This document shows, one piece after another, positions 30,759-33,668 of a stretch of DNA of 45,191 nt (its first letter is position 1; the number at the start of each line of letters is the position of its first letter). Location: NCBI GenBank assembly GCA_030647655.1, contig JAUSJH010000007.1, positions 1-45,191 of the forward strand. Reading direction: 5' to 3'. The notes beneath the pieces were generated by a model that was given only the letters and a program-made list of their open reading frames with translations, was not told where the DNA came from and searched no databases. Both the position numbers and the translations under genes were made by a program. Source of the stretch: a bacterium (GTDB taxonomy: Bacteria > Patescibacteriota > Minisyncoccia > Phycocordibacterales > UBA2100).

Positions 30759-32024
30759 TTAGACGAATGATTCCGGGATAGGGAATCGTTTGCAGAGTGT
30801 ACGGATTTCTTCGCGGATTCCGGCGAGCTTCTTTTCGTCACTCTTATTTTTCATAGCATCCACCATGAGCTCGGCGACCCGCGCCGATTCTTTTTCCATG
30901 AATCCGCGAGTGGTGATGGCGGGAGATCCGAAGCGGATGCCCGAGGGGTCCATCGGTTTTCTAGGATCGTCTGCAATCATGTTCTTGTTGAGAGTCATTC
31001 CAACGCGGTCGAGCAGTGTCTCGGCGTCCTTTCCCGAGATACCGAGAGAGCCGTATACATCAGCGAGAACGAGGTGATTGTCAGTCCCGCCGGTGATAAG
31101 ACGTATATTGTGAGCTTTGAACACCTCTGCCATTGCCTTGGCGTTTTTTATAATTTGCGCGGCATACACTTTGAAATTCGGGTGTTGAGCTTCACCAAAC
31201 GCGACTGCCTTGCCGGCAATATTGTTCATTATCGGTCCACCTTGAAACCCGGGGAACACCATTTTGTCGATCTTTTTTGCAAGTTCTTCGCTTTCTCGGG
31301 TGAGTATCATACCGCCGCGTGGGCCGCGGAGCGTTTTGTGTGTTGTTGTTAACATAATATCGAAACCGAAATCAAATGGATTTTTTGCCGCTTTCCCTGC
31401 GATGAGACCTGCAATGTGTGCGATGTCGGCAATCACGATTGCGCCGACTTCGCGCCCAATCTCGACGAATTTTGCGTAATTTAATTCTCGCGGATATGCC
31501 GAAAAGCCAGCCATAATCACCTTTGGCTTGTTTGCTTTCGCGACCTTCAGCATTTCATCGTAGTCAATCTCGCCCGTCTCTATGTCCTTCATCTTGTAAC
31601 GAATAAAGTTGAAGATCTTCGTTATGTAGGTGACCGGATGTCCATGCGTAAGATGTCCGCCATGCGAAAGATCCATACCCATGAGGGTGTCTCCCGGTTC
31701 CATAAGTGCGAAATATGTTGCTATGTTTGCGGGCGCTCCGGCATGGGGTTGTACGTTGGCATAAGCGCAATTGAAAAGTTTCTTCGCGCGCTCTATGGCC
31801 AATACCTCGACGGCATCAGTAAACTCCTGTCCGCCGTAATAACGTTTTCCGGGGTAACCTTCAGCGTATTTGTTCGTGAGACATGAGCCGTTGGCTTCCC
31901 GGACAGCTCTCGATACATAGTTCTCCGACGGGATAAGTTCCACTCCTTCCGCCTCGCGCTTTTCTTCGCCTTCAAGAGCGGCGAATACTTCGGGATCTTG
32001 TTTTTTCACGGAGTCGTAGTTCAT
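30759..32024 (-). CDS. glyA: Serine hydroxymethyltransferase
   Basis: ELIPSENYVSRAV; TTTHKTLRGPRGGMIL. Confidence 0.97.
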   Translation of the reverse strand: MNYDSVKKQDPEVFAALEGEEKREAEGVELIPSENYVSRAVREANGSCLTNKYAEGYPGKRYYGGQEFTDAVEVLAIERAKKLFNCAYANVQPHAGAPANIATYFALMEPGDTLMGMDLSHGGHLTHGHPVTYITKIFNFIRYKMKDIETGEIDYDEMLKVAKANKPKVIMAGFSAYPRELNYAKFVEIGREVGAIVIADIAHIAGLIAGKAAKNPFDFGFDIMLTTTHKTLRGPRGGMILTRESEELAKKIDKMVFPGFQGGPIMNNIAGKAVAFGEAQHPNFKVYAAQIIKNAKAMAEVFKAHNIRLITGGTDNHLVLADVYGSLGISGKDAETLLDRVGMTLNKNMIADDPRKPMDPSGIRFGSPAITTRGFMEKESARVAELMVDAMKNKSDEKKLAGIREEIRTLCKRFPIPESFV

Positions 32025-32701
32025 AAAATCGATTGTACTGCACGCTCGACATCCTGCCAAACCTCCTCGAGCGAGCGGTCGGCGTTTATGCTGATCGAAC
32101 GACCGTAGTCGTTAATATGCTTGGTGTACCCCTCACGCACACGCTCGTGGAATGCGACCGTCTCCTCGTCAAAGCGGTTCGGCGCCTCAAGGCGCAAATG
32201 TGCGCGCTCAAGCCCGATTTGGGGCGATACATTGAGGAAAATGGTGAAGTCAGGAATACAACCCCGATTCACGATGGCAAAAACGTTCTTGACGAGCGGA
32301 AGATATTCCATTTTTTGTCTCCCATATACTTGATAGGCGATAGTGGAAAGAACAAAACGATCGCAGACGACCATCTTTCCGCTTTCGAGCGCGGGCGCCA
32401 CAAGCTCGGCGATAAGTTGTGTGCGCGCGGCCATGAAGAGGAGAAGTTCGGTCGCGGTATCGATGCCGCGCGTATCTTTTGAAAGGACGAGCCTGCGGAT
32501 ATCCTCGCCGGTCTCCACGCCCCCAGGGTCGCGCGTGAAGACCGTGCCGCGCGGAAGCATTCCCCTCAATCGTTCTACCTGCGCCGATTTGCCCGAGCCT
32601 TCACCTCCTTCAAAAACGATGAATTTCCCGCGGGCCCCGTTAGAGGTGCCGCTTAAGGAGGTTATCTGTTCGTCATAAAGACCTCTAACGGGGCGGGTCA
32701 T
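32021..32701 (-). CDS. tmk: Thymidylate kinase with N-terminal extension
   Basis: GKFIVFEGGEGSGKSAQVERL; VFTRDPGG; CDRFVLSTIAYQ. Confidence 0.93.
   Translation of the reverse strand: MTRPVRGLYDEQITSLSGTSNGARGKFIVFEGGEGSGKSAQVERLRGMLPRGTVFTRDPGGVETGEDIRRLVLSKDTRGIDTATELLLFMAARTQLIAELVAPALESGKMVVCDRFVLSTIAYQVYGRQKMEYLPLVKNVFAIVNRGCIPDFTIFLNVSPQIGLERAHLRLEAPNRFDEETVAFHERVREGYTKHINDYGRSISINADRSLEEVWQDVERAVQSIL
32634..32694. repeat. Palindromic element in the tmk N-terminus, 14-bp perfect arms GCCCCGTTAGAGGT / ACCTCTAACGGGGC, 33-nt loop
   Basis: Arms 32634-32647 and 32681-32694. Confidence 0.93.
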
Positions 32702-32702
32702 A

Positions 32703-33668
32703 TTAGTTTGGTTGGTTCTCAAGATTGCGGAAACCGGCGACGGTGAGCTCGGCTTTTATCGGCGGGTGAGCTTCGTAGCCTTCAAGCGTCACGTGCTCGG
32801 GGCGGAACGCATCGAGTGAGATAACCGCGTCGGAAATCTTCACTTTCGGGAAAGCTTTGGGCTCGCGCGCAAGCTGCTCTTTGACCGCTTCTCTGTGGTC
32901 TTCATAGATGTGCGCGTCGCCGAAGGTGTGCACGAATTCTCCCGCTTCACGTCCGAGTATTTTCGCCACTATCTGGGCCAAGAGCGCGTAGCTCGCAATG
33001 TTGAAAGGGACGCCGAGGAACATGTCGGCGCTTCTCTGATAGAGCTGGAGGCAGACTTTGCCGTGCTTGATGTTCATCTGATACATGTTGTGGCAGATAG
33101 GGAAGTGATTTACCTCTTCGGGCTTTGCCATCGAATAGAGATATTCAGGGTTCCACGAAGTAACTATCGCATTGTGGCAACTCGGGTCATTTTTGAGCTC
33201 CCTCACGGCCCAGCCAAGCTGGTCGATGCCGCGTCCGTCTTTGGCCGGCCACCGTCGCCACATTTCGCCATAAATATGGCGCAGCTCACCCCGCTGTTTT
33301 GCAAAACTAGCATCGGATTTTATTTTCTGGACGAACTCGTCTTTCGTCATTTCAAGTAACTTTTCTTTCTTCGCGCGCTCCATGTAGATGCGATACGGGT
33401 AATCATCCCAAATATGCACGTCGTTATCGACGAGGTATTTGATGTTGGACTGGCCCGACATGAACCAATAGAGTTCGTGCAATACGCCTTTCCAATATAC
33501 TTTCTTCGTTGTCAGAAGCGGAAATCCCCGTGAGAGGTCGAAGCGAATTTGCCGCCCGAAAACGCTGTACGTCTTTTTGCCGTGACCAGTATCCACCTGC
33601 TCGTCGCCGTGTTCGAGCATTTCCCGAAGGAGGTCCAAGTACTGGTGTTCGGCATGACGCGTACCCAT
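32703..33668 (-). CDS. thyA: Thymidylate synthase
   Basis: FPLLTTKKVYWKGVLHELYWF; NHFPICHNMYQ; MFLGVPFNIASYALL. Confidence 0.96.
   Translation of the reverse strand: MGTRHAEHQYLDLLREMLEHGDEQVDTGHGKKTYSVFGRQIRFDLSRGFPLLTTKKVYWKGVLHELYWFMSGQSNIKYLVDNDVHIWDDYPYRIYMERAKKEKLLEMTKDEFVQKIKSDASFAKQRGELRHIYGEMWRRWPAKDGRGIDQLGWAVRELKNDPSCHNAIVTSWNPEYLYSMAKPEEVNHFPICHNMYQMNIKHGKVCLQLYQRSADMFLGVPFNIASYALLAQIVAKILGREAGEFVHTFGDAHIYEDHREAVKEQLAREPKAFPKVKISDAVISLDAFRPEHVTLEGYEAHPPIKAELTVAGFRNLENQPN

Follow-up and report, generated by a model that had tools for sequence, protein, structure and literature searches.

The tmk locus and its palindrome

The window analysed here is a 45,191-nt stretch of a patescibacterial genome. 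On its minus strand thyA is followed by the thymidylate kinase gene tmk, and the stop of the first and the ATG of the second (32701) overlap. The identification of the second gene as tmk is upheld by protein family matches (TIGR00041, E=8e-44; PF02223, E=4.5e-38). The features are listed below (TSD, target site duplication).

32021–32701, minus strand: tmk (thymidylate kinase), ATG at 32701, with 21 inserted residues PVRGLYDEQITSLSGTSNGAR after MTR
32703–33668, minus strand: thyA, upstream of tmk and overlapping its start (TAATATG); open reading frame and protein match
32635–32693, minus strand: mobile palindromic element, CCCCGTTAGAGG-35 nt-CCTCTAACGGGG, 59 nt; empty site in relatives
32635–32647, no strand assigned: left 13-bp arm CCCCGTTAGAGGT (plus-strand letters), inverted repeat
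32648–32680, no strand assigned: loop, 33 nt, its sequence not common to other 59-nt copies
32681–32693, no strand assigned: right 13-bp arm ACCTCTAACGGGG (plus-strand letters), inverted repeat
32631–32634, no strand assigned: TSD copy CGGG (coding strand CCCG), which L079 and L087 have only once at their empty sites
32694–32697, no strand assigned: TSD copy CGGG (coding strand CCCG), which L079 and L087 have only once at their empty sites

An earlier note on this DNA described a perfect 14-bp inverted repeat with a 33-nt loop. The repeat is real: GCCCCGTTAGAGGT at 32634–32647 and ACCTCTAACGGGGC at 32681–32694 are exact inverted arms within the minus-strand tmk reading frame, with 33 nt between them. 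The extent given to the element has to be corrected, in that the G/C pair at the outer end of the 14-bp arms is part of the flanking TSD. The element proper is 59 nt with 13-bp arms around the 33-nt loop, and together with one TSD copy the whole insertion measures 63 nt, or 21 codons.

Exact CCTCTAACGGGG is found in the 904,636-base genome only as the two arms of the window. The loop by itself does not fold significantly (z +1.3 to +1.6), and the cloverleaf-like fold or internal hairpins of several 59-nt relatives are absent from the window copy. Rfam covariance models gave zero matches for the palindrome up to E=1, and it was not found in the plasmid collection. An integron attC site was considered and rejected; attC sites have the order RYYYAAC ... 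GTTRRRY, and the order here is GTTAGAG ... CTCTAAC. Within thyA, at 33526–33537, there is a lone near-match to an arm, CCCCGTGAGAGG, with one mismatch and no pairing partner, probably a chance occurrence.

Empty sites in related genomes

Tmk proteins were said in the earlier note to start normally a short distance before the P-loop. The homology of the window protein to the best-matching solved Tmk begins at its residue 21, which is the element end. Tmk was matched in 36 other genomes of the same genus (52 searched), and these matches begin at query residues 12–26, near the P-loop region. The N-terminal extension, claimed to be element-derived, is absent from all 36. The note's own condition for refutation, an extension conserved in related Tmk proteins and DNA that occurs nowhere else, therefore fails, because relatives are without the extension and the DNA recurs in frame in unrelated genes, as described below.

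Same-genus relatives have kept the empty site, ATGACCCGCGGGAAA. L079 (73% identical) and L087 have ATGACCCGCGGGAAR where the window has ATGA-CCCG-59 nt-CCCG-CGGGAAA, and the DNA that precedes the P-loop strand in these two loci is ATGACCCGCGGGAAG/A. Relative to the empty sites, the window tmk contains a 63-nt in-frame insertion in codon 3 with a perfect 4-bp TSD (CCCG). The empty site shows that the palindrome is mobile. Of the tmk loci fetched from relatives, 29 in all, 28 are without arms, the exception being L098 (genome G024). There, a TCCCGTTAGAGG/CCTCTAACGGGA palindrome with a 108-nt offset is seen at 595–714, about 0.8 kb from the tmk match.

One could still regard the extension as an old, conserved N-terminal domain of Tmk and the palindrome as a chance or regulatory structure, given the position of the arms immediately after the ATG, from which a hairpin could regulate translation. 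The exact empty sites already refute this, and both the absence of the extension in all 36 relatives of the genus in which Tmk was matched and the dispersal of the arms among unrelated genes speak against it, so that it can be set aside almost completely. The Tmk residues predicted to derive from the insert include LYDEQITSLSGTSNGAR; that they are translated is inferred, without proteomic evidence.

In-frame copies in other genes

A search for the element in unrelated genes, proposed as a check in the earlier note, shows that it recurs there in frame. Gaps in the host proteins were read from phmmer alignments to PDB chains. In SecA the known protein has a 21-aa in-frame gap at the element, in UvrB the gap is 17 aa and contains the 11-aa element, and in DnaE it is 11 aa. 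The alignment of TsaD breaks at the element and resumes behind it. In the genome of the window itself there is at least one further in-frame palindrome: DPIRDTSRSNGA lies in a 718-aa GyrB/ParE-like reading frame (C7:27760–27789; L424), its family recognized by eye, and another copy is in a 327-aa reading frame (C5:54324). Prepilin-like reading frames at L201 and L233 open with TPLE...PLTG, a stretch that comes from the element and is immediately followed by the FTLIE motif.

The dispersed family

Exact CCTCTAACGGGG is present in 25 of 40 same-genus genomes, with up to 22 copies in one, compared with about zero for a reversed-pattern control. A relaxed form with paired arms was detected in 30 of 52 genomes (control zero). 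Carriers among named genomes of Patescibacteria include Kaiser-, Nomura-, Giovannoni-, Yanofsky-, Nealson-, Staskawicz-, Vogel-, Jorgensen-, Doudna- and Gribaldobacteria, and the same arms occur in some Nitrospirae, Betaproteobacteria, Planctomycetes and Omnitrophota. None of the named-genome matches listed is from Rickettsiales.

Family statistics are based on 107 distinct copies from named genomes, which are 29 nt (50 copies), 50 nt (22), 59 nt (19) or of other lengths (16). Exact 4-bp direct repeats lie outside the arms in 59 of these copies, versus 4.1 when the right flanks were shuffled (maximum 12). TSDs of 5 bp or more were seen in none of the 59. The consensus is YNNR; the first base is T or C in all 59 and the last is A or G in 57.

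The length plus four is divisible by three in 94 of the 107 copies; the main lengths of 29, 50 and 59 nt each give a multiple of three with the TSD, and copies of these lengths are free of stops in two of three frames. All 50 copies within reading frames of at least 200 aa conform, and the 13 exceptions are all outside (Fisher p=1.5e-4). As most copies outside long reading frames also fit three, the data suggest that coding-compatible length is a property of the palindrome family. Such lengths are probably retained because gene-dense genomes offer little else to land in, although this is an inference. The observation that phase 0 never occurs was discarded as evidence, since a TAG within the arm closes that phase to any reading frame that spans it.

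The lengths also bear on whether the insert is translated at all. In T4 gene 60 and the mitochondrial byp elements, ribosomes bypass a hairpin that lies between take-off and landing sites, and a stable hairpin between short direct repeats, here the TSD, resembles this arrangement. Bypassing, however, would work with an insert of any length and without an open frame, and 50 of 50 copies in reading frames have a length that fits three and an open frame, the latter being partly a product of how the copies were counted. An untranslated insert is thus very unlikely.

The central triplet of the 29-nt copies is nearly random, the 52 copies having 20 of the 32 strand-collapsed types between them. The search required an exact match in both 12-nt arms of these copies; at the 13th pair, 46 of the 52 have C-G. 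Loop sequences vary freely even among copies with intact TSDs, the arms being perfect by search, and the mechanism proposed below does not account for this. Some 59-nt loops (L010, L016, L030, L052, L063) fold into two hairpins to give a three-way junction, with z of −2.3 to −5.1 on the better strand despite unrelated loop sequences. There is also an offset-20 class (L021, L024, L028, L064, L067, L070, L072) of the form CCTG-CCCCGTTAGAGG-n8-TCTCTAATGGGG-TC, without TSD. The listed copies of this class lie in reading frames, in the orientation that reads DPIREPxASNGA or similar, and their arms therefore pair by G.U on one strand only.

GIY-YIG elements as candidate mobilizers

Elements of about 280 bp share the arm core CCCGTTAGA and 4-bp TSDs with the palindromes, and their sole product is a GIY-YIG nuclease of about 85 aa. 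The element at L010 is 277 bp in length, has arms TCCCGTTAGAGA and TSD TTCA on both sides, and its only gene encodes an 87-residue GIY-YIG protein; the right arm encodes the SLTG at the C-terminus of this protein. The nuclease domain matches PF01541 (E=1.1e-15) and PDB entries 1zg2 (E=6.5e-10) and 1mk0 (E=0.004). The GIY residues Y4, Y6, Y17, G19, R27, H31 and E63 are invariant in four aligned proteins.

In a scan of 104 distinct small GIY-YIG reading frames from the genus and the class, with inverted ends of at least 10/11 matching required, terminal inverted repeats with an exact 4-bp direct repeat were found around 37, as against 2 of 206 shifted controls. Arms include TCCCGTTAGAGA, CCCCGTTAGAGA, CCCCGTTAGAAG and CCCCGTTAGAAA, and some ends are unrelated (CCCCCACACTAA). 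Arm similarity tracks nuclease similarity (Mantel rho 0.42, p<=0.0005) with the arm-overlapping C-terminus excluded from the protein comparison. Palindromes are more numerous in genomes that carry the SLTG nuclease sub-family (5.5 vs 1.6, p=0.003). At L108 (TSD TGAA) there is a 191-bp derivative that has kept 18–27 nt of the GIY-YIG element ends around a shorter, different interior. GIY-YIG elements that end in CCCCGTTAGAGA are not confined to Patescibacteria (L428, TSD TAAA, is from outside). Elements of about 280 bp with only the GIY-YIG gene were seen among the loci L304–L309, L315, L316, L328, L334–L339, L344–L350, L364–L401 and L427–L431, though not at every locus. Where the TSD is TGAA, the site ATGAA provides the start codon and the right copy the stop TGA.

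These elements are the best candidate for the mobilizer, and mobilization of the palindrome in trans by their nuclease is an inference that is favoured, if only slightly. No GIY-YIG element with exact CCCCGTTAGAGG arms was found; those seen have GAGA, GAAG or GAAA instead and differ at positions 11–12. Their TSDs are mostly TGAA and those of the palindromes are diverse. Among palindrome carriers, a GIY-YIG match (E<=1e-5) is missing in one Nealsonbacteria genome and in three genomes from outside Patescibacteria, two of which have several copies; all four are MAGs.

Terminal inverted repeats with a fixed 4-bp TSD are a signature of DDE transposition. The palindromes could then be MITEs that belong to a classical insertion sequence yet to be identified, with the GIY-YIG gene a passenger of the same vehicle. 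No GIY-YIG enzyme is known to join DNA ends, and the genomes without a GIY-YIG partner also fit this view. However, no arm pair 0.3–4 kb apart that encloses a transposase was recognized in the fetched loci; in the search for a full-length insertion sequence with the same arms, pairs at this distance only joined separate small elements or enclosed ordinary genes. Moreover, the 280-bp elements have no reading frame other than GIY-YIG, and sequence variation in the nuclease follows that in the arms. An undetected DDE enzyme is possible but doubtful.

Mobilization by RAYT, a Y1 transposase that acts on single-stranded hairpins, would make the palindrome a REP. RAYT genes (PF01797) are abundant in the genus, in 45 of 52 genomes, and the shortest palindromes (29–32 nt) are REP-sized. 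RAYT was nevertheless rejected as mobilizer. No CCCGTTAGA arms lie near ten RAYT loci, palindrome number does not track RAYT number (rho 0.22, p=0.12), and about half of the copies are in long reading frames rather than extragenic. In addition, exact 4-bp TSDs are observed, which Y1/HUH transposition is not known to make. A REP origin is thus improbable.

Comparison with known repeat elements

Rickettsia palindromic elements (RPEs) are palindromic and dispersed, lie in frame in conserved genes and have terminal inverted repeats of about 12 bp (Ogata et al., 2000, 2002, as summarized in PMC2229807 and PMC10969869). They are rickettsial and 105–146 bp in length; their TSD is given as ‘?’, and an enzyme for them is not known (PMC2229807). 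There is a related report from Wolbachia. The likening of the window element to RPEs in the earlier note is largely right. The family is palindromic, dispersed, coding-compatible and in frame in unrelated conserved protein genes, and so meets the in-frame criterion. It is not RPE by length or taxon: copies are 29, 50 or 59 nt, the window element at 59 nt falls short of the RPE length of about 105–150 bp, and carriers are mainly Patescibacteria plus other phyla and not Rickettsiales. The clear, exact 4-bp TSD and a candidate partner nuclease also set it apart.

With bacterial MITEs (RUP, Correia, MITEAba12) the family shares short length, the lack of a gene of its own, terminal inverted repeats and a TSD of fixed length. 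Ends in common with a larger coding element, a further MITE trait, are seen in part: the CCCGTTAGA core and the TSD length are shared with the GIY-YIG elements, but none of those found has identical 12-nt arms. MITEs are usually intergenic and DDE-linked, whereas this family is often genic and in frame, and the coding element has GIY-YIG only. The nuclease domain is homologous (PF01541) to that of homing endonucleases such as I-TevI and of UPF0213/COG2827, but here the gene is framed by its own terminal repeats and 4-bp TSDs and is neither intronic nor free-standing. REP/RAYT systems have GTAG/CGTC-tagged palindromes (PMC3733652). They resemble the family as small palindromes in many copies, but the latter has no fixed flanking tag, its exact TSDs (59/107) vary in sequence, and no RAYT link was found, with arms absent at the 10 RAYT loci.

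Proposed mechanism and significance

Very probably, a MITE-like, non-autonomous mobile palindrome has recently inserted into the tmk gene of the window, at codon 3. The element, its dispersal, TSD, empty site and in-frame position are observed; mobilization by a GIY-YIG enzyme is inferred. The nuclease would recognize the arms and break the two target strands 4 nt apart at YNNR; the TSD would arise when repair fills in these ends. At tmk, the insertion duplicated the target CCCG; with 59+4 = 63 nt gained, the frame stays open and 21 aa would be added. The new residues would sit at a putatively tolerant spot just before the first strand and P-loop. Because most lengths are multiples of three with the TSD and two frames are free of stops, the palindrome can live inside essential genes, in the manner of RPEs.

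The TSD, the empty site and the GIY-YIG link are additions to the earlier reading. It is an even question whether the 280-bp elements constitute an undescribed minimal transposon class, with two 12–14-bp inverted ends, one nuclease of about 85 aa and 4-bp TSDs, that spawns coding-compatible palindromes which spread in frame through essential genes in Patescibacteria and beyond. No account of the palindromes, or of bacterial GIY-YIG elements framed by terminal repeats and TSDs, was found in the open-access literature; this absence is weak evidence, since most subscription papers were outside the search.

Coding palindromes have hitherto been seen as a rickettsial peculiarity of unknown mobility, and are now found in the streamlined Patescibacteria and several other phyla. 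They account for recurrent peptides in these genomes (PVRG..SNG, TPLE..LTG), for which an annotation as real protein features would otherwise be expected. If the minimal GIY-YIG transposon proves true, it would supply an enzyme for RPE-like coding palindromes, whose mobilizer has been unknown since 2000, and the candidate is small enough for testing in E. coli.
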